A stretch of DNA of 64,000 nucleotides from Yinghuangia soli (lineage in GTDB: Bacteria > Actinomycetota > Actinomycetes > Streptomycetales > Streptomycetaceae), in the NCBI RefSeq assembly GCF_021502675.1, contig NZ_JAKFHA010000008.1, positions 35,644 through 99,643 on the forward strand. The letters are read 5' to 3'. Within the stretch, counting starts at the first letter, position 1, and the number at the start of each line of letters is the position of its first letter. Under the pieces are notes generated by a model. That model made no database searches, was not told the DNA's origin, and saw only the letters and a list, made by a program, of their open reading frames with translations. Positions 25,208 to 62,361 of this stretch are shown piece by piece. A program made the translations under genes and the position numbers.

Positions 25208-25444
25208 GGGTCGACTATCCGAGACCACGCAGGAAATTCGGCGGTGCTCTCATGTGAGCGCCGCGACTTCACCCGTATGGCTGCACCCGTTATGGCGCGG
25301 CCGGCTTTGCGGCCGGGCCGTGGCCGCGTCCACGCCATGTCTGTGGCCGCCCACTGTCGCGGTGCCGGGGCCTGTCGGAGGTTGCTACTCGTGGGTATGC
25401 TCGCGCTTGCTGGGCGTCGGCGTGGACGCCCCGGGGAGGCCACC

Positions 25445-47388: not shown

Positions 47389-47413
47389 ATACCCGGTCTC
47401 CGACGTGTCATGC
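47389..47413 (-). promoter_or_regulatory. SigB-like promoter (DUF5133)
   Basis: Minus-strand GCAT-N15-GGGTAT, 48 bases before ATG 47341. The closest of the set to the published SigB consensus. Confidence 0.6.
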
Positions 47414-47444
47414 ACGCGTGCATGCGTCAACGTGCATGCGTCAA
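47409..47444. promoter_or_regulatory. 16-bp palindrome and 14-bp tandem repeat
   Basis: CATGCACGCGTGCATG (47409-47424) is a perfect palindrome that overlaps the -35 side of the SigB-like promoter. CGTGCATGCGTCAA occurs twice head to tail (47417-47430 and 47431-47444). Such phased sites look like operators of a repressor or activator of the DUF5133 gene. Confidence 0.55.
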
Positions 47445-47682
47445 GGAGCCGGGTATTGCCCGGCGAGGAGATTGCCCGGCATGGGAGTTTTCCCGCATGG
47501 AGTGCGATACGCGGGGCAGCGCGCAAGAGAGAGACCGTCCCGGGGAATCGGCCCGGCTGTTCCGGCCTCGGTGCAGACACCAGGTCGCACCCTCGCCGTC
47601 GAACGCGTGTCCGCCCGAGGCCCTCTCGTGAGCTGTGCGGGCCTCCGGCGCCGCGTGGGCCTACCGGAGGTCTCGCTCAGTC

Positions 47683-47904
47683 TCAGTTGTGGGAGTCCTT
47701 GCGTCGGGACTTCGCGCGCGAACGCCGCCAGACCAGCAGCCCGACCGTCGCCGCCGCAGCGCCGAACAGGGGCTTCCGGCGGCCCGCCATGCCCCCGCGG
47801 CCGCGCACGGCACCATGCTCTTCCGCCTTCGCGCGGACGTCGTCAGGGGTCGGCGTGGAGATCGGCGCCGAGTGTTCCGTACGGGGGTCGGGGCCATCGG
47901 CCAC
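47683..47904 (-). CDS. Small basic single-helix membrane protein
   Basis: 73 residues from GTG 47904, with GAGAGGAG upstream. A polar N-terminus (EHSAPISTPTPDDVRAKAEE) is followed by one hydrophobic segment (PLFGAAAATVGLLVW) and a strongly basic end (RRSRAKSRRKD). It resembles small actinobacterial membrane proteins of unknown role. A SigB-like promoter lies 72 bases upstream. Confidence 0.65.
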   Translation of the reverse strand: MADGPDPRTEHSAPISTPTPDDVRAKAEEHGAVRGRGGMAGRRKPLFGAAAATVGLLVWRRSRAKSRRKDSHN

Positions 47905-48228
47905 GGCCGGCTCCTCTCGTCGCGGGCCGTCGCTGCCGTCCGCATGATCAGCAGTCGTTCCGGCCCGCGCCGCCGCTACCCCGTACCGGGACTGCGACAC
48001 ATGCGAACGGCGACGGCCGGCTGTCTCAGCCGGCTGTCTCGGCCGGCGACCCTGGACGGACCAGCCGGAACAGGCGCAGGGTCTTCGTCCGCTGACCTGC
48101 ATGACCATGCGGTCGCCGGGCAGCCGCCACGCGGGTGCCATGATGATCATCTGTGCCGCGGGACCACGTGCCGGGACCGGTGTGCCGGTACCCGTGTGCC
48201 GGGACCCGAGGAGCCCTGAGGAGGCCTT
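47905..48228. other. Intergenic region, 324 bp
   Basis: Divergent spacer between the small membrane protein and the amine-oxidase-like protein. It contains the SigB-like promoter (47976-48000) and three imperfect GTGCCGG(G/T)ACC copies around 48166-48207 just before the ribosome site of the next gene. No gene seen. Confidence 0.6.
47976..48000 (-). promoter_or_regulatory. SigB-like promoter (small membrane protein)
   Basis: Minus-strand GTGT-N15-GGGTAG, 72 bases before the GTG at 47904. Confidence 0.5.
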
Positions 48229-49830
48229 ATGACCGACGCCGCCGATGCCGACGCCGTGATCGTGGGCGCCGGGCCGAACGGGCTCGTGGCCGCCAACATC
48301 CTGGCCGATGCCGGCTGGCGCGTCCTCGTCCTGGAGGCGCAGCCCGCACCCGGCGGCGCGGTGCGCAGCGACCGCGGCGTGCACCCGGACTTCGTGCACG
48401 ACCTGTTCAGCGCCTTCCACCCGCTCGCGGTCGCCTCTCCCGCCATCGCCGCACTCGGCCTGCACGAGCACGGGCTGCGCTGGAGCCATGCCCCCGCGGT
48501 GCTCGCGCATCCGCTGCCCGGCGGGCGTTGCGCGGTGGTGCGCCGCGGCACCGAGGCGACCGCCACCGGGCTCGAACGCAGTTTCGGGGCCGCGGACGCC
48601 GACGCCTGGCGCCGGCTTGCCGCGCTCTGGGACCGGCTCGACCCGCACTTCGTGGACGCCCTGCTCAAACCGTTCCCGCCGGTCCGCACCGGTCTTGCGC
48701 TGGCCGCCCGGCTCAAGCCCTCCGAGGCGCTGCGCCTGGCCCGGTTCCTCACGCTGCCGGTACGCCGCCTCGGCGAGGAGGAGTTCACGGGGCCCGACGC
48801 CGGCGCCGCGATGCTGCTCGCGGGCTGCGCGCTGCACGCCGACCTGCACCCGGAGGCGCCGCCGAGCACCGTGTTCGGCTGGCTGCTGGCGATGCTCGGC
48901 GAGCAGCACGGCTGGCCCGCCCCGGTCGGCGGCGCGGGCGCGCTCACCGATGCGCTCGTCCGGCGCCTGGAGTCCCGCGGGGGTGCGGTGCGCTGCGGTA
49001 CGCGGGTCGCGTCCGTCGTGGTGCGGCGGGGCACGGCGCTGGGCGTGGTCACTGCCGACGGCGACCCGGTCCGGGCCCGCAAGGCCGTTCTGGCCGACGT
49101 CGCCGCGCCTGCGCTCTACGGCGGCCTGGTGTCCTGGGACGACCTCCCGCCCGCGCTGCGCGGCGATATGCGCCGATTCCAATGGGACTTGGCCACCTTC
49201 AAGGTCGACTGGGCGCTCGACGGGCCGATCCCGTGGGAGGCATCCGAGACCGCCGAGGCCGGGACCGTTCATCTGGCCGCGGGCATGGACGAACTCTCCG
49301 ACCACGCGGTCCAGGTCGCCTCGGGGCGGGTGCCCGCGAAGCCGTTCGTGATGCTGGGCCAGATGACCACCGCGGACCCCACCCGTTCGCCGGCCGGCAC
49401 GGAGTCGGTGTGGGCGTACACGCACGTGCCGCGGCGCATCCGCGAGGACCTGGGCGAGGGCGGCCGGGTGACCGGGAGCTGGGACGAGAGCGAGGCGGAG
49501 GCGTTCGCCGCCCGCGTCGAGGCCCAGGTCGAACGCTTCGCGCCCGGCTGGACGTCGCGCATCGTCGGGCGGCGCATCCTGACGCCTCCGGTGCTGGAGT
49601 CCATGAACGAGAACCTGGTCGACGGGGCCCTCAACGGCGGCACCGCGGCGATCCACCAGCAGCTCTTCTTCCGCCCGGTGCCGGGGACCGGCGGTCCGGG
49701 AACTCCGGTCAAGCGCTTGTTCCTTGCCTCGGCGTCCGCGCATCCGGGCGGGGGAGTGCACGGGGCCTGCGGCGCGAACGCGGCACGGGCGGCGCTGCGC
49801 GCCCAGCGCCTCCGCCTTCCGTCGCGCTGA
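48229..49830 (+). CDS. FAD-dependent oxidoreductase, phytoene-desaturase-like
   Basis: 533 residues. The N-terminal dinucleotide-binding motif DAVIVGAGPNGLVAANILAD and LVLEAQPAPGGAVRSD define the NAD(P)/FAD amine oxidase/phytoene desaturase superfamily. Also seen are HDLFSAFHPLAVASPAIAAL, a long middle domain, and the C-terminal FAD contact SASAHPGGGVHGACGANAAR. CrtI-type family members desaturate isoprenoids, but many actinobacterial relatives have unknown substrates, and no carotenoid gene lies nearby. ATG 48229 has GAGGAGGCC just upstream. Cytoplasmic or membrane-associated. Confidence 0.88.
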   Translation: MTDAADADAVIVGAGPNGLVAANILADAGWRVLVLEAQPAPGGAVRSDRGVHPDFVHDLFSAFHPLAVASPAIAALGLHEHGLRWSHAPAVLAHPLPGGRCAVVRRGTEATATGLERSFGAADADAWRRLAALWDRLDPHFVDALLKPFPPVRTGLALAARLKPSEALRLARFLTLPVRRLGEEEFTGPDAGAAMLLAGCALHADLHPEAPPSTVFGWLLAMLGEQHGWPAPVGGAGALTDALVRRLESRGGAVRCGTRVASVVVRRGTALGVVTADGDPVRARKAVLADVAAPALYGGLVSWDDLPPALRGDMRRFQWDLATFKVDWALDGPIPWEASETAEAGTVHLAAGMDELSDHAVQVASGRVPAKPFVMLGQMTTADPTRSPAGTESVWAYTHVPRRIREDLGEGGRVTGSWDESEAEAFAARVEAQVERFAPGWTSRIVGRRILTPPVLESMNENLVDGALNGGTAAIHQQLFFRPVPGTGGPGTPVKRLFLASASAHPGGGVHGACGANAARAALRAQRLRLPSR

Positions 49831-49845
49831 GGAGCGGCTCCTTCT

Positions 49846-49878
49846 TTCTCCTGGCGTTCTCCTGGCATTCTCCTGGCT
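49846..49878 (+). repeat. Three tandem 11-bp repeats
   Basis: TTCTCCTGGC plus one variable base occurs three times in a row (49846, 49857, 49868), then TTTTTCC. It lies just after the oxidoreductase stop. No function is evident. Confidence 0.75.
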
Positions 49879-49902
49879 TTTTCCGCGGATTCGGAACGCC
49901 GC

Positions 49903-49927
49903 GACTCATCGGCGGCGGGCCGGGTAG
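49903..49927 (+). promoter_or_regulatory. SigB-like promoter (74-residue protein)
   Basis: GACT-N15-GGGTAG ending 10 bases before ATG 49938, so the message would be nearly leaderless. Confidence 0.5.
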
Positions 49928-49937
49928 CCGCGGCGGC

Positions 49938-50162
49938 ATGGATACGCTCCCGATCGCTGCTGTCACGTCCGCCTGGCCGTTCACCTGGGTGGCGGTACCT
50001 GCCTTCTTGGTGGTCGCCGCTCTTATGGCCCTGCTCTTCCGGGAGCACGCGGCACGGCGGCGTCGGCGGCATGTGGTCCGGTACGCCGACGTCCACCCAC
50101 TGCGCGGGTTCGGCAACTTCGGTGTGCGGCCCATGAGTTGGACGCAGCGCGACGACCGGTGA
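49938..50162 (+). CDS. Small single-helix membrane protein
   Basis: 74 residues, not recognised. One long hydrophobic helix (FTWVAVPAFLVVAALMALLF) is followed by an arginine cluster (RRRRRHVVRY) and a short tail ending GVRPMSWTQRDDR. The ribosome site is weak, but a SigB-like promoter stands directly before the ATG. Possibly a stress-induced envelope peptide. Confidence 0.6.
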   Translation: MDTLPIAAVTSAWPFTWVAVPAFLVVAALMALLFREHAARRRRRHVVRYADVHPLRGFGNFGVRPMSWTQRDDR

Positions 50163-50318
50163 CGCGGTGCGGGCAGGCGGGACGCGGGGCGGGGCAGGCA
50201 AACCGGACTGCTGCGCTCCCCTTCCCGATCGTCCGCGCATGCATGCCGGCGCGCGGGTCGGGCACCCGCACTCCGGCGGGGACTCCGCCCCCGCACCGGA
50301 ACCGGAAGAGGAAAGCAC

Positions 50319-50915
50319 ATGGCGACCACCATGGACCGCAGGAAGACCACGACCGACCCCAACCCGCTGTACGCCGTCGTCGGCGCGGGCGACCTCGCGG
50401 TCGAGAAGATCCGCGAAGTCCCCTCGATGATCGCCGACCTCAAGATCGACATCCCCACGGACGCCCGGTCGATGCGCTACCGCGTCTCCAACACCGCGTC
50501 GGACGTGCGTGCCCAGGTCGGCGGGACGTTCGACGCCGTCTCCAAGGACCCCGGCGGCTTCGCCAAGGACCAGTACGGCAAGGCCCGCAAGGCGTACGAG
50601 GACCTGTCCGTGCGCGGCGAGCGCGTCGTCGACCGGATCCGCGGCAAGGTCGACGAGGCCACGCGTACGGCCTCCCGCGAGGCCAAGGAGCTCAAGGACA
50701 CCGCGAAGGACCGCGGCCGCGAGGCCAAGCACGAGGTCGAGGAGCGGGCCGCCGAACTCAAGACCCGCGCCGGCAGCGCCGCCCGCGACGCCAAGGACGA
50801 GGTCAAGACCCGCGCCGACGGCGCCGCGGCGAAGGCCAGGACGGCGTCCGGCTCCACGGGCCGCCCGAAGACCGCGCGCACGACACCCAAGCCGGGCCCG
50901 GCCGCGGGTCGGTAG
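50319..50915 (+). CDS. HbhA-like helical, Lys/Ala-rich protein
   Basis: 198 residues. The start NPLYAVVGAGDLAVEKIREV is typical of heparin-binding-hemagglutinin-like proteins of actinobacteria. A long charged coiled-coil follows (KDQYGKARKAYEDLSVRGER, SREAKELKDTAKDRGREAKH), and the end is Lys/Ala/Pro-rich like a histone tail (TGRPKTARTTPKPGPAAGR). GAAGAGGAAAG before ATG 50319 is a good ribosome site. In mycobacteria relatives adhere to heparan sulfate; in Streptomyces such proteins may organise the envelope, septum or storage lipid bodies. Role here unknown. Confidence 0.82.
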   Translation: MATTMDRRKTTTDPNPLYAVVGAGDLAVEKIREVPSMIADLKIDIPTDARSMRYRVSNTASDVRAQVGGTFDAVSKDPGGFAKDQYGKARKAYEDLSVRGERVVDRIRGKVDEATRTASREAKELKDTAKDRGREAKHEVEERAAELKTRAGSAARDAKDEVKTRADGAAAKARTASGSTGRPKTARTTPKPGPAAGR

Positions 50916-50921
50916 GCACGT

Positions 50922-50993
50922 CCAGGCCGTCCAGGCCGGCCAGGCCAGCCAGGCCAGCCAGGCCAGCCAGGCCAGTCAGGCCAGCCAGGCCGC
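50922..50993 (+). repeat. Eight copies of a 9-bp tandem repeat
   Basis: (C/T)CAGGCC plus two variable bases repeats eight times directly after the HbhA-like gene. No stop-free frame of interest; probably slippage DNA. Confidence 0.85.
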
Positions 50994-51310
50994 CCAGAAC
51001 CGACGCAGGGCCGAACCGCGACTGCACCGCGGTCCGGCCCTGCGTCTTGGGGTGCTGTTGCTGGATCCCGCGGCCGCAACCCCCGCGCCCCGCAGCCCGC
51101 GGCCTGCCGGCCGTTGGCCCGGCATCCCGCTCCCGCGTCCTGCTCCCGACCTTCGGTTCTGCGTCCTGCTTTCGCGCCGTACGTCCCTTTTCTCTTTCCG
51201 GCGTCATGCAGTTCCGCCTCCACCGCACTGCCTGTCCCTGGCTAACGTGGGGACGAGACGGGGGCCGCCCCCGCGCCCGACCGCCCGCCCGACCCACCGG
51301 AGGCATCGGT
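50994..51310. other. Intergenic region, rest of a 395-bp gap
   Basis: The 395-bp gap after the HbhA-like gene consists of the 9-bp repeats, the terminator at 51002-51046 and a stretch to the esterase start with a TAACGT-type -10 around 51244 (CTGGCTAACGTGGGG). No gene is visible. Confidence 0.5.
51002..51046 (+). terminator. Terminator of the HbhA-like gene
   Basis: A long stem, 12 bp plus 6 bp with a single mismatch (51002-51020 with 51028-51046), 7-nt loop, follows the repeat. Confidence 0.75.
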
Positions 51311-52309
51311 TTGAGCGTCCGCGACTTCGCGCCGGAACCCGCGGCGGCACCGCCGTTCGACCCCGAGGTGGAAGCAGTCCTGGCCAAGGTGCGCGGGCGC
51401 TCACCCGGTCCGCTCACCCCGGCGAATCTCGCGGACCGCCAGACCCAGGACGCCACCGCCCGTCCGCGCCCCACGCTCGACAAGCTGAGCACCGACGAGC
51501 GCTGCGAGTTCGCGGAGCTGCGCGTCCCCGGACCGCCGGGAGCTCCTGACGTCACCTTGGTGAGCGCCCGTCCGCGCGGCCTGGACGGCCCGCTTCCGCT
51601 GGTCTACTACATGCACGGCGGGGCGCTGGTGATGGGCAACGCCTGGTCCGTGCTCCCGCGCGTCGTCGAGGAATGGGTGCTGCCTCTCGGGATGGCGGCG
51701 CTGTCCGTCGAGTACCGGCTCGCCCCGGAGGCCCCGTACCCGGGTCCCCTCGACGACTGCCACGCCGGGCTCGTCTGGGCCGCCGAACACGCCGCCGACC
51801 TCGGTATCGACCCCGACCGCATCGTCATCGCCGGCAAAAGCGCCGGCGGCGGCCTCGCCGCGGCGCTCGCCCTCCTGAACCGCGACCGCGGCGGTCCGGC
51901 GCTCCGCGGGCAGATGCTGCTCTGCCCGATGCTCGACGACCGCGACCGTACGTACTCCAGCCACCAGATGTCCGGCCGCGGCCTGTGGGACCGCACGTCC
52001 AATGCCACCGCCTGGCAGGCGTACCTCGGCGACCGATACGGCACCGACGACGTCCCGCCCTACGCTGCCGCCGCCCGCGCCACCGACCTCTCCGGCCTGC
52101 CTCCGACTTTCCTCGACGTCGGCTCCGCCGAAATGCTGCGCGACGAGGCCGTCGCCTACGCAAACGCCCTTTGGCAGGCCGGCGGCGAAGCCGAACTCCA
52201 CGTCTGGCCGGGCGGATCCCACAGCTTCGACAGCCTGGCCCCGCACGCAACCCTCAGCCACGACGCCCGCAACGCCCGCACCCGCTGGCTCCGCCGCTTG
52301 TCGGGCTGA
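51311..52309 (+). CDS. Alpha/beta hydrolase, hormone-sensitive-lipase-type esterase
   Basis: 332 residues. Oxyanion-hole motif YYMHGGALVMGN, nucleophile Ser177 in IVIAGKSAGGGLAAAL, acid in LDVGSAEMLRDEAVAYA and His in WPGGSHSFDSLAP give the full catalytic triad of the HSL family. It hydrolyses a carboxylic ester of a small lipid-like compound. TTG 51311 is the start: GGAGG lies seven bases upstream and the frame has no better candidate. No signal peptide, so cytoplasmic. Confidence 0.9.
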   Translation: MSVRDFAPEPAAAPPFDPEVEAVLAKVRGRSPGPLTPANLADRQTQDATARPRPTLDKLSTDERCEFAELRVPGPPGAPDVTLVSARPRGLDGPLPLVYYMHGGALVMGNAWSVLPRVVEEWVLPLGMAALSVEYRLAPEAPYPGPLDDCHAGLVWAAEHAADLGIDPDRIVIAGKSAGGGLAAALALLNRDRGGPALRGQMLLCPMLDDRDRTYSSHQMSGRGLWDRTSNATAWQAYLGDRYGTDDVPPYAAAARATDLSGLPPTFLDVGSAEMLRDEAVAYANALWQAGGEAELHVWPGGSHSFDSLAPHATLSHDARNARTRWLRRLSG

Positions 52310-52365
52310 GTCTGTTCGACAGGCCGCGCTTTCGCGGCGCGGAGCCGACGGGGCGGGCGCGTGGC

Positions 52366-53844
52366 CTACTTGGGCGGGGCCACGGGGAAGACGAAGTAGG
52401 CGTTGCCGCTGTCCTCGCGCACGACGCCGAAGGTGTCGCCGAACGACGGCACCGTGGGCACCTTCTCGGCAAGGAGGGCGTGGGTCCGGGCGTCGAGGGC
52501 CGCGGTGCCACCGCCGTCCAGCAGGGCGTAGAGCACACCCTTCGGGGAGACGGCCTCCGGGCGCAACTGCCGCTCGTCCGCTGCCTGCTCCCACAGCTTC
52601 CGGCCGGAGGCAGTCTCCCAGGCGACGGCGCCCTTCGTCAGGGCCACTACGGCGATGCCGCCGTCCGGCGACAATGCGACACCCGATTTGGTGGGGCCCG
52701 CAAGCTTCACACCGGGCGGCGTGGTCGGGCCCTGGGAGATGAGCCTGCCCGTCGCGGGGTCGTGCGCGGTGAACGTGGTCGCGCCCCCGGAAGGCGCGGT
52801 CCACGCCAGGAGCAGCAGCTTCTCCCGGGCGGCGACCACGGACACCGACGGCGCCTTGCCCGCCGCGGCGGCGCGGATCGGTTCGGGTACGGGAATCGAC
52901 TTGGTGCCCCACAGCTCCTTGTCCGTGAACATGTCGCGGACGACGAGCTTGCTCGGGCACCACCCGGGCTCGCCGCACTCAGTGGTGCCGTGGAGGAAGT
53001 ACTTCAGCGGCTCGCGCCGGTAGTTCTCCGCGGGCGACGCGTGCTCGTAGAGCATGCCGCGCGGCGGCCTGAACTCCGCGCCGCCGCCGATCGGAAGGTA
53101 CGGCCCGCTGGACGGGACGAGGTAGCCGTCCCACACGATGGGGTCCTGGTGCACGTCCCCGTCGAACTCCGAGGTGCCGAGCACCTTGCCGGACGGCGCG
53201 TACATCGTCAGCGTCGTGCGCGTCGTCGCCGCCTTCAGCCCGTCGGCGCCGGCCTGCGCGACTGTGCGGACCACCAGCGCGGGCGAACCGTCCCTCCAGT
53301 AGCCGACCTTCACGAACTTGTCGGCGCTGATGGCGACATCGGACGCGGCCGGCTTCGCTTCGATCGTGGCCCGCTCCGCGCCCGTGGCGCCATCGCGGAT
53401 CGTCGCCTTGAAGCCCTCCTTCGCGTGAGTCGCGGAGACGCTGCGGATGAACACCACCGCGTCGCCGAACGCACAGGCCGGGTCCGGGCTGCCCTGCAGG
53501 CCGCGCACGATGTCCGCGCGCCCGGCGCACAGACCGGCCTCTTCGACGCTCACACTCCACGCCGGACGGTCCGCGAGTCCCGGTATCGCGGGCCCCTTGT
53601 ACTGCGGCCCCTTCGGGGCCTCGGAGCCCTGTCCCGATGCGCCGTCGCCGCCCCTGCCGGCTGTGCCTGCCGCGTTCGCATCCTGGGCCGGGTCGTCGCC
53701 CCCGGAACCGCACGCGGCCGTCATCGTCAGCGCGAGCAAGACCCCCGCTCCGACCACGGCCGCCCGCCGCGAACGCCCCCGCCCGGCAGCGCCGGATGCG
53801 GTCAGGAGGCGCCGGTTTCGGACATGGCCATGCGGTCGGTACAT
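52366..53844 (-). CDS. Lipoprotein with beta-propeller-like domain
   Basis: 492 residues. A lipoprotein signal with lipobox LTMTAAC after a basic start; the first part of the mature protein is Gly/Ala/Asp-rich linker. The rest is Gly/Ala-rich beta strand sequence that resembles PQQ-type propeller repeats (TLTMYAPSGKVLGTSEFDGD, VWDGYLVPSSGPYLPIGGGA, AWETASGRKLWEQ, LYALLDGGGTAALDARTHAL). Likely a surface-exposed binding or assembly protein of unknown partner. The ATG at 53844 is used; a second ATG at 53862 in the same frame is possible because neither has a strong ribosome site. Confidence 0.72.
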   Translation of the reverse strand: MYRPHGHVRNRRLLTASGAAGRGRSRRAAVVGAGVLLALTMTAACGSGGDDPAQDANAAGTAGRGGDGASGQGSEAPKGPQYKGPAIPGLADRPAWSVSVEEAGLCAGRADIVRGLQGSPDPACAFGDAVVFIRSVSATHAKEGFKATIRDGATGAERATIEAKPAASDVAISADKFVKVGYWRDGSPALVVRTVAQAGADGLKAATTRTTLTMYAPSGKVLGTSEFDGDVHQDPIVWDGYLVPSSGPYLPIGGGAEFRPPRGMLYEHASPAENYRREPLKYFLHGTTECGEPGWCPSKLVVRDMFTDKELWGTKSIPVPEPIRAAAAGKAPSVSVVAAREKLLLLAWTAPSGGATTFTAHDPATGRLISQGPTTPPGVKLAGPTKSGVALSPDGGIAVVALTKGAVAWETASGRKLWEQAADERQLRPEAVSPKGVLYALLDGGGTAALDARTHALLAEKVPTVPSFGDTFGVVREDSGNAYFVFPVAPPK

Positions 53845-54075
53845 GAGGAGAGCAGGTCCCATCGGCAGAATGGATCTTGGAATGGACAGCCCACCGTAAC
53901 GCCGCCCACGACACCCGGCCGTACCCGGTAGCCATAATGCGCATCCGTGCCGCACCGGACACCGTCCGTCCCGCAGCGTCCGCAAGGGGATGCAGGCCTG
54001 GGAGCGAAACGGTGCCGTGTCAGACCAGGATGAGAGAAACGGATGAAGCAAGGCGACCTGGAGGGCGACCGACCG

Positions 54076-54705
54076 ATGACCCACACCCCTGAATCCGCCG
54101 GCACCCCAGACGACGGCGACCAGACGGTCATAGACGCCCTCGCGCGCGCGAACATCGTTGCGCTCGCGGCCGAGCTCGTGGAGCGCGGCTGCCCGGCCGA
54201 GGGACTGATCGATCCGGACGCGGCGGAGGAGGACGACGAGGAACGTGCCGAGTACCGGATGTTCGCGGTTCAGGTGCACCCGGGCCTGGAGCGCTGGGTC
54301 GCCATGCCCGGTGTCGACCTCGCACTCGTCCGCGCCGCGGGACCGGACGACCCCTGGGCCGTGGAATGCGACATGGACCCCTACGCCTGGCCCGATCTGA
54401 TCGCCGAGTTGGCCGACGACGCCCTCGGATGGATCGCGTTCGGACGCAACCTCGCGCTCGTCAGGGACGAACTCGCCCGCCGCGGACTCGTGTTCCACGA
54501 CAAGGACGTGAGCACGGACGTGGACGCGTGCGGCGGAGGCTACGAGGCATTCACGTTGCACGCACCGAACTCGGTGGTGATCCGCCTCGGCGTCCCGAAC
54601 CGCGAAGCGGGTCCGGGATCGCGCGCTGAGCTTTTCGTGAACGGCTACGGTCACCTCTTCGAGCAAGCGATCGAATCGATCCTGCAAGCGGCGGCGACTC
54701 CGTAA
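54076..54705 (+). CDS. Conserved-looking cytoplasmic protein, unknown function
   Basis: 209 residues, acidic, without membrane segments. It has MFAVQVHPGLERWVAMPGVD, DPYAWPDLIAELADDALGWI, and LVFHDKDVSTDVDACGGGYE, ending NGYGHLFEQAIESILQAAA. I do not recognise the family. ATG 54076 has GGAGGG ten bases upstream; an in-frame ATG at 54043 would add 11 residues. It stands alone between a lipoprotein (divergent) and a membrane gene (convergent). Confidence 0.7.
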   Translation: MTHTPESAGTPDDGDQTVIDALARANIVALAAELVERGCPAEGLIDPDAAEEDDEERAEYRMFAVQVHPGLERWVAMPGVDLALVRAAGPDDPWAVECDMDPYAWPDLIAELADDALGWIAFGRNLALVRDELARRGLVFHDKDVSTDVDACGGGYEAFTLHAPNSVVIRLGVPNREAGPGSRAELFVNGYGHLFEQAIESILQAAATP

Positions 54706-54818
54706 CCCGACGGCCCACGTTTGCTCGCCACCGAGCCGCCCTAGCCCGGGCGCCCAAGAGTTCGGAACGGGAGGCGGCCTCTGTCGACAGCCGACAGCCC
54801 GACCGCCCACGCCGGAGG

Positions 54819-56114: not shown

Positions 56115-56117
56115 AAG

Positions 56118-56203
56118 CAAGCATGATCCCACCGGCCCACGCGTACAGCCCGCGGATTTCCTCGTACCGGCCTTCGCGGACGCGAAGCTCCACAGCAAGA
56201 CGA
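56118..56203 (-). pseudogene. Duplicated fragment of the adjacent membrane gene
   Basis: 56118-56203 aligns with about 55355-55437, inside the gene at 54819, at roughly 80 percent identity, with a one-base indel near 56195. In translation it reads VREGRYEEIRGLYAWAGG against VHEGRYEEAGELYARVGG. It is a remnant of a second copy, now a stub between the membrane gene and the DUF1062 gene. Confidence 0.65.
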
Positions 56204-56207
56204 GGGC

Positions 56208-56756
56208 TCAGTGCTTGAGCGTGAAGGTGAAGTCGCCGGAGAGCTTGCCGCTCAACCGGGATGCCGAAACGAGCTTCCCCTCCGCGATCAGCCTCTCGGC
56301 CTCGGCCCGCGAAAGACCGCAACCTTCGGCGATCAACCGCACCGGCCGGACTGGGATCCGGGCCGCAAAGCGGACCGCGACGTCGATCACTTCGCGGCCC
56401 ACATGATCCGATCCGCCGGTGTCGAGACGCCAGGCGCCGTCCCAGTCCAGGGCTATGCGATTACAGCGCTTTACGACCGGATCCTGGAGCAACTCGGCTG
56501 CCAGGCCAGGGCCATTCCCATGCATCCGCTCCAGCAGATCAGGCCGTACGGATTGCACGTTCGTCCGCTCGAGAACCGTGAGCTTCGCCGTGTCCCCGCA
56601 AGCGGTACAGAGCACAAGGAGCCAGGCGTCGAGGTTCTTATGGTTTGCGTTGACGCGGAACTTGCCGTTCGCCCGAAAGCGCTCGGACGCGCACACGTGG
56701 CAACGGCGGAGAACGGTCGGCAGGCAGGTGGGCATGACCACCCAGCGATGGAGCAC
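56208..56756 (-). CDS. DUF1062 protein with zinc-ribbon
   Basis: 182 residues from GTG 56756. The N-terminal half is a zinc-ribbon: RRCHVCASERFRANGKFRVN and LLVLCTACGDTAKLTVLERT give two Cys-x2-Cys pairs, as in DUF1062 proteins, which begin with a similar W-V-x-PT-x-x-P stretch. The C-terminal half contains LIAEGCGLSRAEAERLIAEG and a short basic strand, similar to an S4-like nucleic-acid-binding motif. Suggests RNA or DNA binding, not proven. It lies beside the duplicated fragment. Confidence 0.82.
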   Translation of the reverse strand: MLHRWVVMPTCLPTVLRRCHVCASERFRANGKFRVNANHKNLDAWLLVLCTACGDTAKLTVLERTNVQSVRPDLLERMHGNGPGLAAELLQDPVVKRCNRIALDWDGAWRLDTGGSDHVGREVIDVAVRFAARIPVRPVRLIAEGCGLSRAEAERLIAEGKLVSASRLSGKLSGDFTFTLKH

Positions 56757-57116
56757 AGAAGTACACCGATTTCAGTGAGAAGTCCGCAGCAAAGAGGAGC
56801 GCGGCGCACATACGCGACGCGCGACACATCAGCTCTCGGGAGGTCTCACAGGGTGTACAACGGCACGTCCTTGCCTAGGCGACTTGGCTCGGACACAAGG
56901 TAATGACGCTCAGCAACGCATCTCCACCGATTTTCGAGCGCTCGGGGCAGGCGCGGAGGATGACGCGTTCCTCGGGCATGCCGGCGAGAGCGCTTCGTGG
57001 AACCGTCGAGTGATTCCCTTACAGATCAGGGGTGTTCGTACGGCAAGATCCATCAGGCCGAAGGTGCGATGCCGGTCCTTCGCAGCGCGTCGAGTCCTTT
57101 GATACGGAGCAGCGCC
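56757..57116. other. Intergenic region, 360 bp, lower GC
   Basis: No gene I can support. The sequence is noticeably lower in GC than its neighbours and contains only short open frames without family features. Likely remnant DNA beside the degraded HD gene, together with the promoter of the DUF1062 gene. Confidence 0.5.
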
Positions 57117-57614
57117 TCAGCCACGTAGGAAAGTCCGCTGCCATTCGGTGGACGACAGACCCTGCGAGGCGTCGCCCAGAGCGACCGCCGAGGCCGTCTT
57201 CAGCTTGGCCCGCGTGCTGTCGACCCATTCCTGGGCATTGGCATAGCCCTGTTCGAGGTATTCGAGTCCCTGGATCATGCACTCGAGCCGGTCCGCGTCG
57301 TGGGCGACCTGGGCTTCAAGAGTCTCGCCCCGCTCGTACTCGTCGACCGCTTCGGCGATGCCGGCCGCGACAGCCGGATGCGCGTCGGCGAGCTGGTCGG
57401 CAGTGACCTGGCGGTTGTCCGCGGCTTGCAGGTAGCGGCGACCGACCCAGGGGATGTCGCCGACGCGGGTCTCCTGCGAGTCATGGAACGTACACAGCAG
57501 CGCGACCCGTCCGGCATCGGCACCCTCCATCATCGCCAGCACGGAGCCGATGACCGGGGTACGCCAAGAGTGCTCGGCAATGGTCTCAGGATCCTTGACG
57601 CCGACGATCCACCG
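57117..57614 (-). pseudogene. HD-domain hydrolase, 5' end lost
   Basis: The frame 57117-57542 encodes the middle and end of an HD phosphohydrolase (YfbR/HDDC2-like): TFHDSQETRVGDIPWVGRRY has the metal-binding HD pair. The homologous sequence continues upstream in the same frame without an ATG or GTG: RRWIVGVKDPETIAEHSWRT (57614 downward) is the conserved N-terminal helix with the first metal His. The usual 10-20 residues before it are missing and replaced by the 3' end of the next gene, which overlaps by about 28 bases. It is probably a dead or truncated gene. If expressed, it would lack its start helix. Confidence 0.7.
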
Positions 57615-59352
57615 CCGCTGCTGCTGAGGCTGCGGTGAGGAGTTCCCTAACGGTTCCCGAGAACTCGTCGAGGAGAGCCAGGGCGATGGTCCAGGTCTCG
57701 GCTGATTGTGGGGTGGAGAGGTGGGTGGTGATCAGGTCTTGGAGCGCCTTGGTGGCGTTGGTGTGGGCTTGGGGGACTGTTGTCCGGCAGAGATCGACTA
57801 CGGCGAGGGCGGCTGCTGCCGGGTGGGCCTTCGTGATCAGGTCCGCGCCTTCGATGAGGCGGTGGCCGAGGGCGGGCCAGATCCAGCGGGAGCCTGGTCG
57901 GACGGATTCGCTCAGCTGGAGTGGGTGGTCGAGGAGGGCAGCCAGGGCGTCGTCGCGGGAGAGCAACTCTGGGGGTTCTACGGGCATCGGGACGCGGTTG
58001 GGGACGGGTTGGACGACGCGTGGGTGGCCGGTGGCGTGGGCTACTTCGGGGTGGAGGGGGACGCGGCGCCATGTGAGTCCCGAGGCGCGTTCGTGGGGGT
58101 GGAACTGCTCGACGAGCCGTACGGCGGTGGTGGGTGGAGCGAGGAGGAGCAGCAGGGCTTCTGGGTTGCCTCTGGCGCCGTGGACGGCCCATCTGTAGTC
58201 GGGGACTGGGGCGGGTTGCCGGGCTGTGTCGACGAGTTCGGGGAGTGTGCCGGGGAAGTGCGGGCCCAGGCGGATCAGGCGCAGCCATGCGTCCACGTCG
58301 TCGCGCAGGGGGCGGAACGGGGCCAGGCCGAGGAGGGCGTAGAGGAAAGGGAAGGGCGAACCGACCCAGGGGGTACGGCCGATCGGGGAGCAGAAGCGTT
58401 CGATCAGCCCGAGCAGCGGCCAGGCGGGGGCGGTGTGGCGGACTACGTCTTCGGCGGTGAGTGTGCCCGCGTAGATGGCGTCGATCAGGCGCTGGTCGAG
58501 GCGTCGCAGGCCGCGCAGTAGTGGCGCCACCGCGTCGGGTGGGCAATCGGGGTGGGCGAGGAGTGCGGCGCGGACCCGGTCGTTGAAGGGCTGGTGGCGG
58601 TGGACGTGGAGGAGGCCGGCCCAGTCGAGGGTGAGCTCGCCCGCCAGGATGTCCTCGGCGCGGTAGTTGCGGCTGCCGAGGCTTACGCGCCGGGCCTGCG
58701 CGTCGGGGCCGGCGATCGCGGCAGCGTGCTTCGTCAGGCGTTCCCGGCCGGCGGGCGCGGTCAGGTACGGCTGCAGCAAGCGCAGGTGTTTTGCCGTGGC
58801 GCGCATGCCGGTTGGCTGCAGGGCTGCGTACACACCTTCGGTGTCGCGGGCTTGCCACAGGCGTAGTACGGCGTCCACGAAGAGCGGGTCGTCCAGCGGC
58901 GCGGGCTGCCCGATCTGGGCCACGGCTGATGCGACGACGTCCAGATCCGACGTGGCAAGCAGCGGCCGTGCCCGTACCGTGGCGCTCTCCCACATGCGTG
59001 CGACCACGGTGTCGGCAGCGTGCGGTGTGCGGGCGATCAGCGTGCCGAGTACGCCGCCGTCGAGCTCGCGGCGTGCCAGGAGCGCCTCGTCGACCTGCGG
59101 GATCTGGGCTGCGGCGAGACGCCGTTGGCCTGATGGGCCGAGGCGGGTGTTCGCCGCCAGATCAGCCAGGCCGGCCGGGTCGCCGCGGCGTAGCTCGTGG
59201 TCGGTCAGCGCGTCGAGGGACGACCCGGCCGACGTAAGCGCGCGGGTCCGAGTCTCGGCGGGGATCCGCGCCAGGACCGCGTCGTACGTGTCCGCGGGCA
59301 GATGCCGCAGGAGCGCCCCGGCGGCATCTGCCCTGTTCAGCCACCAGAACAT
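57586..59352 (-). CDS. Large protein of unknown function, alpha-helical repeats
   Basis: 588 residues from ATG 59352 (MFWWLNRADAAGALLRHLPA). No recognised catalytic motif. It is Ala/Leu/Arg-rich with recurring LLAHPDCPPDAVAPLLRGL-like units and many ARIPAETRTRAL-type helices, suggesting a HEAT- or LRV-like solenoid, probably a scaffold. The C-terminus (AAASAAAAVDRRRQGS) runs over the lost 5' end of the HD gene in another frame, so its natural end may have been altered by the same event. No partner gene is evident. Confidence 0.68.
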   Translation of the reverse strand: MFWWLNRADAAGALLRHLPADTYDAVLARIPAETRTRALTSAGSSLDALTDHELRRGDPAGLADLAANTRLGPSGQRRLAAAQIPQVDEALLARRELDGGVLGTLIARTPHAADTVVARMWESATVRARPLLATSDLDVVASAVAQIGQPAPLDDPLFVDAVLRLWQARDTEGVYAALQPTGMRATAKHLRLLQPYLTAPAGRERLTKHAAAIAGPDAQARRVSLGSRNYRAEDILAGELTLDWAGLLHVHRHQPFNDRVRAALLAHPDCPPDAVAPLLRGLRRLDQRLIDAIYAGTLTAEDVVRHTAPAWPLLGLIERFCSPIGRTPWVGSPFPFLYALLGLAPFRPLRDDVDAWLRLIRLGPHFPGTLPELVDTARQPAPVPDYRWAVHGARGNPEALLLLLAPPTTAVRLVEQFHPHERASGLTWRRVPLHPEVAHATGHPRVVQPVPNRVPMPVEPPELLSRDDALAALLDHPLQLSESVRPGSRWIWPALGHRLIEGADLITKAHPAAAALAVVDLCRTTVPQAHTNATKALQDLITTHLSTPQSAETWTIALALLDEFSGTVRELLTAASAAAAVDRRRQGS

Positions 59353-59725
59353 CAGCGTTCCCGCCCCATCGGCGCGTGGGGGGTCGTGACGATGAGGCCG
59401 GCTTCGCTGCGCATGGCACTGAACGTACAGGTGGGGTACGCAGCAACGGCGTCTGCCGGGTGGTGGTGGCGGTGAAGGCCGGGCGCACGCGCCGGGCAAA
59501 GGGTCGTGAGGTCTGGCGCGGCCATCAGCCGCGTACAGCCAGGTCCAGTGCCGGCCGCGCCGCCGCGCCGCCGCGCCGCCGCGCCGCTCGCTCACGCCGC
59601 TACGTCGCCACCGGCCGCGCGGCCAGGACCGGCGCCGATGCCGGGCATGCGGTCGTGCGTCCATGCCGTCCGTTCCGCTGCGCCGTCGGCGGACTCGTGA
59701 CGGCCGGCACCGGCACCAGCCCCGG
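59353..59725. other. Intergenic region, 373 bp
   Basis: No gene seen. It must carry the promoter of the 588-residue protein. From 59554 to 59588 there is an 8-bp CGCCGCCG-type tandem run of about four copies; the rest is unremarkable. Confidence 0.5.
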
Positions 59726-60025
59726 TCAGACGGTCGCGCCGGCCGCGGCGTCGGCGGCGTCCGCGGCGTTGCGGCGCCGGCGGCCGCGTACGACCAGGAC
59801 CACCACGAGTACGGCCGTCGCCCCGGTGACCAGCTTGGACGGGCGGCGGGCGCCGCCCCGCGCCGAGTCGCCGGGCGGGTTCAGGATCTCCGGGTCGAAC
59901 CCGTCGTCCGGGCCGAGGCCCGGCACCGGGACGCGGGGCTTCGCCGGTTCGGCGGAGTCGTGCTCCCGGGCTGGTGCGCGGAGGCGGGCGCGTAGCCCTT
60001 CCGCCCGCGTGTCGTCGGTGGGCAA
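59726..60025 (-). CDS. Small single-helix membrane protein, Arg/Ala tail
   Basis: 99 residues starting at TTG 60025 (GAGGAGAG upstream). A polar, Pro/Asp-rich N-terminus is followed by one helix (KLVTGATAVLVVVLVV) and a basic RGRRRR. It follows the SRPBCC gene by 43 bp, so they are probably co-transcribed. Resembles small proteins of unknown function that are common in Streptomyces; no homologue is certain. Confidence 0.6.
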   Translation of the reverse strand: MPTDDTRAEGLRARLRAPAREHDSAEPAKPRVPVPGLGPDDGFDPEILNPPGDSARGGARRPSKLVTGATAVLVVVLVVRGRRRRNAADAADAAAGATV

Positions 60026-60068
60026 GGTGTTCTCTCCTCGGATCGGGCGTCCGGACGCGGCGGACGGA

Positions 60069-60518
60069 TCAGACTTCGCCGCGCCAAGCGCCGGTGGCGT
60101 TGCCGTCGCGGGTCTCGATGAACTCGCGGAACCGTTCGAGGTCGCCGCGGACCTTGCGGGTGACGAAGCCGAGCTTGTCGCCGACGTTCTCGACCATGCC
60201 CTCGGGGTCGTGGTCGAGCTGCAGCATCACCTTGGTATGCGTGTCGTCGAGGCGGTGGAACGTCACCACGCCGCCCTGGTCCGGACCGCTGCGGCTGCGC
60301 CACGCGATGCGCTCGTCGGGGATCTGCTCGGTGATCTCGGCAGCGAACTCCCGCTTCACACCGGAGATGTTCGTCACCCAGTACGTGTGCGTGGCGTCGA
60401 TCTGCTCGACGCGCTCGACGCCGTCCATGAAGCGCGGGAAGTCCGCGAACTGCGTCCACTGGTCGTACGCCGCACGGACCGGGACCGCCACCTCGACAGA
60501 TTCTTCGACCTGCGTCAT
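60069..60518 (-). CDS. SRPBCC-family (polyketide cyclase/Coq10-like) protein
   Basis: 149 residues, START-like fold. VEVAVPVRAAYDQWTQFADF and PRFMDGVERVEQIDATHTYW are the cavity-lining N-terminus, with DPEGMVENVGDKLGFVTRKV later, as in the cyclase/dehydrase-like proteins of Streptomyces that bind hydrophobic ligands. ATG 60518 has AAGGAG nine bases upstream. A SigB-like promoter lies 47 bases upstream, inside the end of the preceding gene, so it may be stress-induced. Ligand unknown. Confidence 0.85.
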   Translation of the reverse strand: MTQVEESVEVAVPVRAAYDQWTQFADFPRFMDGVERVEQIDATHTYWVTNISGVKREFAAEITEQIPDERIAWRSRSGPDQGGVVTFHRLDDTHTKVMLQLDHDPEGMVENVGDKLGFVTRKVRGDLERFREFIETRDGNATGAWRGEV

Positions 60519-60564
60519 GTTGCATCGCTCCTTCTTCGCATAGGGATGGGCCGGAGCCCCGGCG

Positions 60565-60589
60565 CTACCCGCTTCGGCGGCCGCCACGC
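60565..60589 (-). promoter_or_regulatory. SigB-like promoter (SRPBCC gene)
   Basis: Minus-strand GCGT-N15-GGGTAG. Its TAG is also the stop codon of the HGxxPAAW-type gene. Confidence 0.5.
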
Positions 60590-60885
60590 CCCTCGTCCAC
60601 GAACCGGTCGCGCAGTTCGACGTCGCCCTCCTGGTGGTAACCGGGCGGTATCCCCAGGCCCATCAGGGACAGGATCTTCCCCAGGAACGCACCGACCACG
60701 GCCACGCCGACCCCCGTCCAGAAGAGCCAGACCTCGGTCGTCGGAAAGGCGATCGCCGCCATGAGGCAGCCCGCGAGGATGACCGCCACGCCGATCCACG
60801 CGGCCGGGCTGTGGCCGGCGTTGTCGATACGCATGTCGCGGCGCCCGTAGCGCCGCTGCGCCTTCGCATGCGGGTCGTAGCTCAT
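60565..60885 (-). CDS. Small HGxxPAAW-type membrane protein (DUF6704-like)
   Basis: 106 residues. The motif GHSPAAWIGVAVILAGCLMA is the HGxxPAAW-like signature of small actinobacterial membrane proteins, with a second helix LFWTGVGVAVVGAFLGKILS and the tail LGIPPGYHQEGDVELRDR. Two membrane spans, both ends cytoplasmic; function unknown. ATG 60885 has GGAGGC upstream. A SigB-like promoter is located 91 bases before it. Confidence 0.8.
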   Translation of the reverse strand: MSYDPHAKAQRRYGRRDMRIDNAGHSPAAWIGVAVILAGCLMAAIAFPTTEVWLFWTGVGVAVVGAFLGKILSLMGLGIPPGYHQEGDVELRDRFVDEGRGGRRSG

Positions 60886-60975
60886 GTCGCCGCCTCCTTG
60901 TGATCAAGCAAATACCGTCCGGTGTGCCGGCTGCGTCCGCTGTTCGTCCGTTCTGCGCCGGCTGTGTGCCCGGCG

Positions 60976-61000
60976 CTACCCGCATCGCGCCCGCTGATAC
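60976..61000 (-). promoter_or_regulatory. SigB-like promoter (HGxxPAAW gene)
   Basis: Minus-strand GTAT-N15-GGGTAG in the divergent spacer with the YihY gene. Confidence 0.5.
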
Positions 61001-61007
61001 GTCGCCC

Positions 61008-61032
61008 GCATGCGTCCGCAGGTTCCGGATAG
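61008..61032 (+). promoter_or_regulatory. SigB-like promoter (YihY gene)
   Basis: GCAT-N15-GGATAG ending 9 bases before ATG 61042; one base off the GGGTAG core. Confidence 0.4.
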
Positions 61033-61041
61033 CTGCTCTGC

Positions 61042-62070
61042 ATGGCGTGGATCCGACGAAGAAGACAAGACCCAGAACCACCGCCCGGGCCTGACCCCGC
61101 GGTTCTGCGGGATGCCCCCGACGAGCCTTCGGAGCTGCCCAAACGGTCGTGGTGGGCCGTGCTCAAGCGCACCGCCGCCGAGTTCCAGGAAGACGAACTC
61201 ACCGACCGGGCAGCAGCCTTGACCTACTACGGCGTGCTCTCGCTCTTCCCCGCGCTGCTGGTGCTCGTCTCGCTCCTCGGCCTCGCCGGCGCCGCTGCCA
61301 CCCGCGAAATTCTCGACAACATAGGCGAGTTGGCTCCTGGCGCGGCACGCGACGTGCTCACCAACGCAGTACGCGACCTCCAGTCCAGCACCGGCACCGG
61401 ATCAGTACTCGCCGTCGTCGGCCTGGTGCTCGCCGTATGGTCGGCGTCCGGCTATGTCGCGGCCTTCATCCGGGCCTCCAACGTCGTCTACGACATCCCC
61501 GAAGGCCGCCCGGTCTGGAAACTCACGCCTCTCCGCCTGGCCATGACACTCGTCCTCATGGTCCTGGCCTGCGCGAGCGCGCTGATCGTCGTCTTCACCG
61601 GAGCGCTCGCCCGCCAAGCCGGTGCCGCGCTGGGGGTCGGGGACGCGGCGGTACGCGTCTGGGACATCGCCAAGTGGCCCGTCCTCGTGGCCCTGGTGAT
61701 CCTCATGATCGCGCTGCTCTACTGGGCCGCCCCGAACGCCAAGAGCCGCGGATTCCGCTGGATCACCCCGGGCAGTTTCCTCGCCCTGGTGATCTGGCTG
61801 GTCGCCTCGGCCGGCTTCGCGTTCTACGTGGCCACCTTCGCCACCTACAACAAGACGTACGGCACCTTCGCCGGCGTGGTCGTCTTCCTGGTCTGGCTGT
61901 GGGTGACCAACATCGCCGTGCTGCTGGGCCTGGAGTTCGACGCCGAGTTGTCCCGCCAGCGGGCGATCGCGGGCGGCCACCCGCCCGACGACGAGCCGTA
62001 CGTCCGGCCCCGCGACACCCGCAAGTGGCCACCGGAGGAACGGCTCCGCGCCAAGAAGGCCCGGGGCTGA
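61042..62070 (+). CDS. YihY/BrkB-family membrane protein
   Basis: 342 residues. After a polar N-terminus of about 30 residues comes TAAEFQEDELTDRAAALTYYGVLSLFPALL, then six hydrophobic helices and the family motifs ASGYVAAFIRASNVVYDIPE and TYNKTYGTFAGVVVFLVWLW with LLGLEFDAEL. The family was once called ribonuclease BN but is now held to be a membrane transport or permease-like protein of unclear substrate. C-terminus is charged. Confidence 0.92.
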   Translation: MAWIRRRRQDPEPPPGPDPAVLRDAPDEPSELPKRSWWAVLKRTAAEFQEDELTDRAAALTYYGVLSLFPALLVLVSLLGLAGAAATREILDNIGELAPGAARDVLTNAVRDLQSSTGTGSVLAVVGLVLAVWSASGYVAAFIRASNVVYDIPEGRPVWKLTPLRLAMTLVLMVLACASALIVVFTGALARQAGAALGVGDAAVRVWDIAKWPVLVALVILMIALLYWAAPNAKSRGFRWITPGSFLALVIWLVASAGFAFYVATFATYNKTYGTFAGVVVFLVWLWVTNIAVLLGLEFDAELSRQRAIAGGHPPDDEPYVRPRDTRKWPPEERLRAKKARG

Positions 62071-62256
62071 TCAGCCGTCCTCCGGAAGCCCCTCCCCGCT
62101 GCGCCGGACGACGAACGCCCATCCGCGCCGATAGACCGCGACCCACCCCTGCGTCATCGCCGACACCACGACGACCGCCACCATGGCGTTGTCGCGATAC
62201 CGCCCCGCCGAGTTGCCCGCGGGCCTGCCGATAAGTGCGCCAAGGCTGTACATCAT
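62071..62256 (-). CDS. Small membrane peptide
   Basis: 61 residues with two adjacent ATG codons (62256, 62253) after GAGGAGGTC. One hydrophobic segment (NAMVAVVVVSAMTQGWVAVY) and basic flanks. Unknown; it overlaps no other gene and is convergent with the YihY gene by one base. Confidence 0.55.
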   Translation of the reverse strand: MMYSLGALIGRPAGNSAGRYRDNAMVAVVVVSAMTQGWVAVYRRGWAFVVRRSGEGLPEDG

Positions 62257-62336
62257 GACCTCCTCAGGCCCTTCCAGGCCGCTTCCCGCACGCTGCCCCG
62301 GCCCGCCCCCGCCAGTCCCCGCCGACCCCGATTCCC

Positions 62337-62361
62337 GCGTACGAAGACCATCTCCGGGTAG
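62337..62361 (+). promoter_or_regulatory. SigB-like promoter (decarboxylase gene)
   Basis: GCGT-N15-GGGTAG, 9 bases before ATG 62371, giving a near-leaderless message. Confidence 0.5.

Follow-up and report, generated by a model that had tools for sequence, protein, structure and literature searches.

In this study, we analysed a stretch of the Yinghuangia soli genome of 64,000 nucleotides (nt), hereafter the window, in which seven sites of the form GNNT-N15-GG(G/A)TA(G/T) lie before genes for a DUF5133 protein, two small putative membrane proteins, an SRPBCC protein, an HGxxPAAW protein, a YihY-type membrane protein and a decarboxylase. We consider these sites to be real SigB-class promoters of one common regulon, with a probability of about 0.87. 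A SigB-type stress regulon that takes in unknown small proteins had been put forward in an original prediction, and this proposal is supported by promoters of the same kind before paralogues, by conservation centred on a spacer of 15 base pairs (bp) and by spacer-specific placement before genes.

Results

All seven sites could be confirmed at the coordinates and strands at which they had been predicted, as could the spacing of exactly 15 bp between the half-sites, which holds for 7 of 7 and lies in the N14-16 range of the SigB class. The sites lie upstream of genes and in the correct direction, as expected of that class. The -35 element GNNT is present in all seven and takes the form GYRT in six, while the final base of the -10 element is G in six, one of them reading GGATAG, and T in the seventh. 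A C directly precedes the -10 in six of the seven (CGGGTAG four times, CGGATAG and CGGGTAT once each), the site at 47976 reading GGGGTAG. The pattern matches eight times in the window, whereas shuffled sequences gave a mean of 1.61 (standard deviation 1.25) and reached eight or more in 0 of 100 shuffles; the eighth match, GAAT-N15-GGATAG at 25215-25239 on the minus strand, was absent from the earlier list. Upon variation of the spacer from 8 to 23, a length of 15 gave eight matches, 19 gave four, two of which use the same -10 as an N15 site, and each other length gave 0-2. At the genome density of 169 matches in 9.706 Mb, eight matches in 64 kb correspond to a Poisson P of ~2e-5, which is no clean P value, the pattern having been defined after the sites were seen. 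By automatic gene calls from a simple codon-position model, taken without the hand-added small genes and without the longer YihY start, five of the eight N15 sites in the window are intergenic with a start codon within 250 nt.

The same promoter was found before paralogues elsewhere in the genome, 60 nt upstream of an HGxxPAAW gene (C23:272666), 48 and 80 nt upstream of two SRPBCC genes (C23:279622 and C42:53085) and 59 nt upstream of a DUF5133 gene (C23:302946); it was not found before a distant third HGxxPAAW match (C8, 31% identity, L128). Orthologue sets consisted of the best 28-35 family-wide loci per gene, own copy included, from 81 genomes searched, and their non-redundant 150-nt upstream regions were scanned for GNNT-N15-GG(A/G)(T/C)A and compared with shuffles and with coding-region and reverse-strand controls. 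The element occurs in 25 of 29 SRPBCC regions (shuffle mean 0.76, maximum 3; coding control 0, reverse-strand control 4), in 15 of 29 DUF5133 regions (shuffle mean 0.78, maximum 4; controls 5 and 3) and in 14 of 29 decarboxylase regions (shuffle mean 0.66, maximum 4; controls 0 and 6), the last of which also give nine matches at N16 and six at N17. For YihY, with 80 named loci, it occurs in 16 of 73 regions (shuffle mean 1.74, maximum 5; controls 2 and 5). Conservation is best shown for the SRPBCC, DUF5133 and decarboxylase genes and less strongly for YihY. With the stricter core GG(A/G)TA at N15, the counts are 8/29 for SRPBCC, 6/29 for DUF5133 and 2/29 for the decarboxylase. HGxxPAAW homologues were dropped as a conservation test, most of them being ~35% identical and probably not orthologues.

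The distance to the start codon is likewise kept. Within preset ranges (35-70 nt for SRPBCC, 30-65 nt for DUF5133, 7-12 nt for the decarboxylase and YihY), the site lies 40-63 nt before the start in 24 of 30 SRPBCC loci, 38-63 nt in 20 of 30 DUF5133 loci and 9-10 nt in 19 of 30 decarboxylase loci. The last base of the -10 varies among these orthologue sites (SRPBCC: C 14, G 10; DUF5133: G 10, T 9, C 1; decarboxylase: G 13, C 4, A 1, T 1), and so does the fourth, with a core that is mostly GGGTA or GGGCA.

The genome-wide count that the original prediction had called for went against the raw pattern and in favour of a tighter form with one spacing and placement at gene starts. Genome-wide enrichment of the raw pattern was dropped as an argument, with 169 matches against 170 for the reversed control; a single match therefore carries little weight, and the signal resides in local clustering and in placement before genes. 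The tight form GYRT-N14-CGGGTAG, in contrast, has 21 exact copies in the 9.7-Mb genome, of which 18 are intergenic, 17 of these also having a start codon within 250 nt, the sequence used for this comparison being 16% intergenic. At the other spacings from N11 to N17, 19 of 80 sites are intergenic and 6 of 80 also have a start within 250 nt, all six at N16; this comparison covers 80 of 103 matches, among the matches listed, with a few counted twice. Many copies of the tight motif are clustered, on C23 (272-303 kb and 382 kb), C42 (52-56 kb), C44 (4-43 kb) and C78 (the window). In 253 kb of the same genome that had not been picked for N15, that spacing accounted for one promoter-placed pattern site and other spacings for 0-3, which indicates that the motif is concentrated in islands. 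A genome search with one mismatch was uninformative (518 matches, 782 in the control), and a search with a variable gap gave 124 matches against 172 in the control, which mostly look like coding-frame matches.

Besides GGGTAG, the variant GGGCAG shows the same preference for a spacer of 15, with 17 of 54 sites in the Y. soli stretches covered promoter-placed at N15 compared to 1-8 at spacers 12-14 and 16-18, whereas GGGCAC shows no such enrichment at N15 in this genome (2 of 30 promoter-placed). GGGCAG is probably a second accepted -10, since five copies of a membrane protein of 46-56 amino acids (aa), three in Y. soli and two in Yinghuangia seranimata (L023, L027, L031, L336, L337), each follow GNNT-N15-GGGCAG. 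The loci L021-L040 were mostly picked for N15 GGGTAG sites, which skews last-base proportions towards G, and overlaps of 4 kb between L291 and L031 and of ~0.6 kb between L038 and the window lead to double counting of a few sites in the tight-motif, GGGCAG/GGGCAC, last-base and divergent-pair counts.

In three cases the start codon had been predicted to lie only 9-10 bases past the -10, and this is so for 49938 (10 nt), 61042 (9 nt) and 62371 (9 nt). From this position relative to the start codon, we infer that the three transcripts are probably leaderless. A -10 of the form GG(A/G)(T/C)AN ending 9-11 nt before the start was found in 19 of 29 decarboxylase loci, own copy included, compared to 3 of 199 background genes of the Y. 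soli genome, in 5 of 80 YihY loci and in 0 of 125 loci of the other four gene sets. In Streptomyces muensis (L041), S. spongiae (L042) and S. caeruleatus (L045), the -10 lies nine nt before the YihY ATG, as in the window. Separately, the decarboxylase gene of Y. seranimata (L337:10231-10523, L047:9577-9869) appears as an 85-aa open reading frame (ORF) extending from the protein start to the C-terminal part, with the leaderless-type promoter intact.

Among 107 GGRTAN N15 sites over 1.116 Mb, which includes stretches picked for the motif, we observed seven divergent pairs with -35 elements 1-22 bp apart and no convergent pair, where 0.13 would be expected at uniform density. One of them lies in the window (60976-61000 and 61008-61032, 7 bp between) and the others in L336, L338, L339, L340, L341 and L346. 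Clustering in islands inflates the excess over the uniform model, yet would not alone yield seven divergent pairs and no convergent one.

The Y. soli genome holds eight strong SigB/F/G-type sigma genes (TIGR02980), six over the cut-off and two just under it. One of them, at C23:382850-383788 (hereafter C23 sigma; TIGR02980 231.9 bits against a cut-off of 234.35, its top-scoring NCBIfam model, with regions 2, 3 and 4 present), has GTGT-N15-CGGGTAG 202 nt upstream, and a catalase gene ~5 kb away has the promoter as well. Downstream of C23 sigma follow genes for an HATPase_c_2 protein (L024:13785-14312, E 1.5e-9) and an ANTAR-GAF-PAS-SpoIIE protein (SpoIIE E 2.8e-45; both from Pfam), so that the adjacent RsbW-like kinase and PP2C phosphatase of a SigB partner switch are found here; no STAS gene is among the three genes adjoining C23 sigma. 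Upstream N15 sites are also carried by the sigma genes on C44 (GTTT..GGGTAT) and C34 (GCAT..GGGTAC). In a tree of 56 sigma proteins, C23 sigma forms a clade (support 0.93) with the C44 sigma and relatives found in 17 further genomes of its family, the Streptomycetaceae, and 0 of 18 sequences from 12 named Streptomyces genomes, best matches included, fall inside this clade. Seven of the 17 relatives (L247-L263) have an upstream site at N15 or N16, which reads GGGTAG in L247, L254, L257, L258, L260 and L261 and GGGTAA in L262.

In 14 stretches of 20 kb from nine other genomes, holding clade or regulon genes and in several cases picked for SRPBCC or HGxxPAAW rather than for the sigma, 33 promoter-placed N15 sites were observed (G 26, A 3, C 3, T 1). 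Ten more sites had a spacer of 16, and every remaining length between 11 and 19 gave 1-4. The control set of six stretches (120 kb in total) gave three sites at other spacings and none at N15. The distance between the sigma and SRPBCC genes is 4-21 kb in G064, G001, G080 and G076 and ~66-106 kb in G068, G060, G017 and Y. soli, and in other clade genomes they are further apart or on separate contigs. Among SRPBCC and decarboxylase promoters, a G ending is commoner where a clade member is present (10/12 vs 13/31, Fisher P 0.019), in a small hand-labelled set with DUF5133 excluded, where clade presence means a sigma inside the tree clade and other genomes were classed by the lower score of their best match, not by placing all their sigmas in the tree. 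The original prediction had taken the frequent G to mean that a related sigma factor is possible, which our results support in part. We rejected the G as proof that another sigma is at work, since orthologues differ in this base and GGGTAG is found in mapped SigB- and SigFHN-dependent promoters; what stands is that, near one sigma clade, most promoters (26 of 33) have G as their final base.

We clustered the first genes after 108 N15 sites (GG(A/G)TAN or GGGCAG) of Y. soli and nine other genomes, in stretches picked for the motif, the sigma or SRPBCC. Recurring first genes encode a 107-110-aa MPRGSSPKR protein (seven genomes), full-length sigmas of the clade (five), SRPBCC (four) and catalase (two), as well as hemerythrin-like, small membrane, EF-hand, CBS-like and DUF5709 proteins, some of them assigned by Pfam and the CBS-like one read from sequence alone; 40 first genes are singletons. 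By analogy, this gene set resembles a general-stress profile. It also includes a half-sigma of 118-147 aa, similar solely to the first half of SigF-type sigmas and without regions 3 and 4 (PRK07122 E 3.6e-5; 24-40% to full sigmas of the same genome). Copies lie at C23:283958-284401 (L022:3958-4401), on C44 (L027:6588-6944) and in Y. seranimata (L337:2958-3341); those of L022 and L337 stand behind a GGGTAG N15 promoter, the one of L027 not directly. The L022 and L337 half-sigmas are 62% identical, with nonsynonymous (dN) and synonymous (dS) divergence of 0.28 and 1.53 by YN00 and of 0.32 and 0.59 by NG86.

Discussion

We propose a model in which RNA polymerase carrying a sigma factor of the SigB/SigF family would read the seven sites through GNNT, 15 bp and (C)GGGTAG, and would jointly switch on the genes for the small membrane proteins, DUF5133, SRPBCC, HGxxPAAW, YihY and decarboxylase, presumably under stress. 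These genes would belong to a larger regulon of perhaps a few dozen genes, lying in islands along the genome. The most likely driver would be C23 sigma, with the genes for the RsbW-like ATPase and the SpoIIE-type phosphatase providing a partner switch: the phosphatase side would free the sigma, its activity would rise and its own promoter would amplify the response, self-amplification being suggested because a copy of the promoter precedes the sigma gene. That C23 sigma is the main driver of the regulon appears to us an even bet. Speculatively, and improbable in its entirety, Yinghuangia, together with some further genera of its family, might possess a separate SigB-like sigma clade whose GNNT-N15-CGGGTAG regulon lies in islands with back-to-back pairs and would also make the half-sigma as a possible decoy for an anti-sigma factor or core polymerase, tuning the very sigma that switches it on.

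The promoter kind is known, while the gene set and the likely sigma look little studied. The consensus of SigB promoters of Streptomyces coelicolor, as cited in PMC5402319, is GNNT-N14-16-GGGTA(C/T); the window sites share its -35, its GGGTA core and a spacer within its range, and differ in that all have a spacer of 15 and most end in G. Mapped S. coelicolor promoters ending in G are listed in Table 2 of PMC8346170 (SCO1566p, SCO7446p, SCO1276p), where GGGTAG occurs in promoters of both SigB and SigFHN dependence, and the SigB-dependent SCO1566p reads GCTT-N15-GGGTAG with the spacer counted from the fourth base. In Table 1 of that paper, not one of the 14 genes or operons is described as SRPBCC, YihY, DUF5133 or decarboxylase. 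Many decarboxylase orthologues, with GTTT-N15/16-GGGCAG, resemble the SigF/SigH/SigN-type promoters of its Table 2 (GTTT...GGGCA), whereas the decarboxylase gene of Y. soli has GCGT-N15-GGGTAG. Sigma-8 (SAV741), a SigB homologue of S. avermitilis, is likewise an autoregulated SigB-like sigma with a consensus derived with N15, but this consensus, as given in PMC5402319, is loose (BGVNVH-N15-GSNNHH). The C23 locus follows the order of SigB/RsbW/RsbU modules, with the HATPase_c_2 and SpoIIE-phosphatase genes behind that of the sigma, and departs from them in the ANTAR, GAF and PAS domains of its phosphatase and in the lack of STAS among the three adjoining genes. Our literature search, which left most subscription papers outside, returned nothing on DUF5133, on Yinghuangia sigma factors or on leaderless Streptomyces genes with GGGTA sigma promoters, and among the titles listed nothing on point for half-sigma decoys or divergent promoter pairs. 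Within the same bounds we found no description of the regulon, which need not mean that it is unpublished.

The sites could be real promoters that several of the eight SigB/F/G-like sigmas, those on C44 and C34 included, read in common, with no dedicated GGGTAG sigma, and we give this reading a little under even odds. Eight strong TIGR02980 matches are at hand for it, two further sigma genes carry upstream N15 sites of their own, the last base varies among orthologues, and L267, L272 and L273, outside the clade, have GGGTAG upstream; furthermore, the SigB homologues of S. coelicolor recognise each other's promoters according to PMC8346170. The enrichment of sites that other genomes show near members of the C23 sigma clade, their G ending (26/33) and its higher frequency in clade genomes argue in the other direction.

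An origin by chance, i.e. a loose pattern in GC-rich DNA picked by eye, would agree with the genome-wide count that equals the reversed control and with a pattern set after the sites had been seen. We reject it as extremely improbable, because the shuffles never reached eight matches, a single spacing prevails, the tight motif is placed before genes, and the spacing is kept across genera, with the SRPBCC, DUF5133 and decarboxylase sites in particular speaking against chance. Conservation alone cannot separate a promoter from an operator, and stress islands often hold other regulators, so the element might instead be bound by a DNA-binding regulator; two unlike half-sites at fixed spacing without an inverted repeat, the orientation towards the gene, the distances to the start of 9-10 nt in leaderless cases and of ~40-63 nt in SRPBCC and DUF5133 orthologues (preset ranges), and the agreement with the mapped SigB-class promoters in PMC8346170 render this highly improbable.

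Several observations weigh against a common regulon read mainly by one sigma. On the side of the sites, the raw pattern lacks any genome-wide excess, YihY conservation amounts to just 16/73, and the orthologue comparison covers five of the eight sites (DUF5133, SRPBCC, HGxxPAAW, YihY and decarboxylase). For HGxxPAAW, the looser core gives 4 of 35 (shuffle 0.47), yet also four at N21, and the strict core GG(A/G)TA was found in the two Y. soli copies alone (n=35). On the side of the sigma, the 250 nt before the assigned start lack an exact site in ten of the 17 clade relatives (L248-L253, L255, L256, L259, L263), and neither the sigma stretch of G044 nor the HGxxPAAW stretch of G001 has an N15 site. 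Outside the clade, the GGGTAG upstream of L267, L272 and L273 stands at N13/N14, and L271 has GGGTAC at N15; G is therefore not unique to the clade. SRPBCC and DUF5133 promoters also occur in genomes whose best sigma match is a different paralogue, so that where no clade member is among the best matches, other sigmas must read them. Considering the cross-recognition among SigB homologues, assigning one sigma may be artificial.

A common SigB-class regulon would provide a testable stress-type regulon outside Streptomyces and would bring several functionally uncharacterised proteins (DUF5133, HGxxPAAW and small membrane proteins) under the control of a single switch. The results suggest that GGGTA(C/T), the published consensus, defines the last base too narrowly, and they point to one sigma clade that can be compared with its paralogues in promoter preference. 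The recurrence of probably leaderless starts and back-to-back promoters could make the system useful for testing how promoters are built in GC-rich bacteria.

Annotation of the window

Table 1. Promoter sites and associated genes annotated in the 64-kb window of Y. soli
Feature	Position	Strand	Basis or remark
SigB-type promoter GCAT-N15-GGGTAT, 47 nt upstream of DUF5133 gene	47389-47413	-	Pattern search
DUF5133 protein, 81 aa	47096-47341	-	Pfam PF17196 E 2.3e-19
SigB-type promoter GTGT-N15-GGGTAG, 69 nt upstream of GTG 47906	47976-48000	-	Pattern search
Small protein, 81 aa, one hydrophobic segment, GTG start reassigned	47661-47906	-	Sequence and ribosome site; no Pfam match
SigB-type promoter GACT-N15-GGGTAG, probably leaderless	49903-49927	+	ATG 10 nt past -10
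Predicted membrane protein, 74 aa	49938-50162	+	Sequence; no Pfam family over cut-off
SigB-type promoter GCGT-N15-GGGTAG, 46 nt upstream of SRPBCC gene	60565-60589	-	Pattern search
SRPBCC / polyketide cyclase-like protein, 149 aa	60069-60518	-	PF03364 E 5.3e-22
Small membrane-type protein, 99 aa, directly 3' of SRPBCC	59726-60025	-	Sequence
SigB-type promoter GTAT-N15-GGGTAG, 90 nt upstream of HGxxPAAW gene	60976-61000	-	Pattern search
HGxxPAAW family protein, 106 aa	60565-60885	-	NCBIfam NF041681 E 3e-13
SigB-type promoter GCAT-N15-GGATAG, probably leaderless	61008-61032	+	Pattern search; 7 bp from divergent 60976-61000
YihY/BrkB family membrane protein, 342 aa	61042-62070	+	PF03631 E 2e-67; TIGR00765
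SigB-type promoter GCGT-N15-GGGTAG, probably leaderless	62337-62361	+	Pattern search; -10 kept in orthologues
Orn/Lys/Arg decarboxylase family protein, 503 aa	62371-63882	+	PF01276 E 1.1e-50
Eighth, weaker match GAAT-N15-GGATAG, 7 nt upstream of 372-aa ORF start	25215-25239	-	Pattern search
Weaker variant GCAT-N15-GGGCAG, upstream of FAD-dependent oxidoreductase gene 48229	48099-48123	+	Sequence
Weaker variant GCAT-N15-GGGCAC, 53 nt upstream of 198-aa helical protein gene 50319	50241-50265	+	Sequence
Weaker variant GACT-N15-GGGCAG, upstream of 61-aa ORF 62071-62256	62293-62317	-	Back to back with decarboxylase promoter

The promoter at 47976 more likely drives the GTG start at 47906, which has a GGAG ribosome site and opens the 81-aa frame, than the ATG at 47945. 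The promoter at 60565 overlaps the end of the HGxxPAAW ORF (60565-60885), the TAG of its GGGTAG (60565-60570) being the stop codon of that ORF. The gene of the 99-aa protein probably forms one operon with the SRPBCC gene. The 198-aa helical protein encoded at 50319-50915 is apolipoprotein-like, with a match to PF01442 (E 1.8e-8) under the cut-off.

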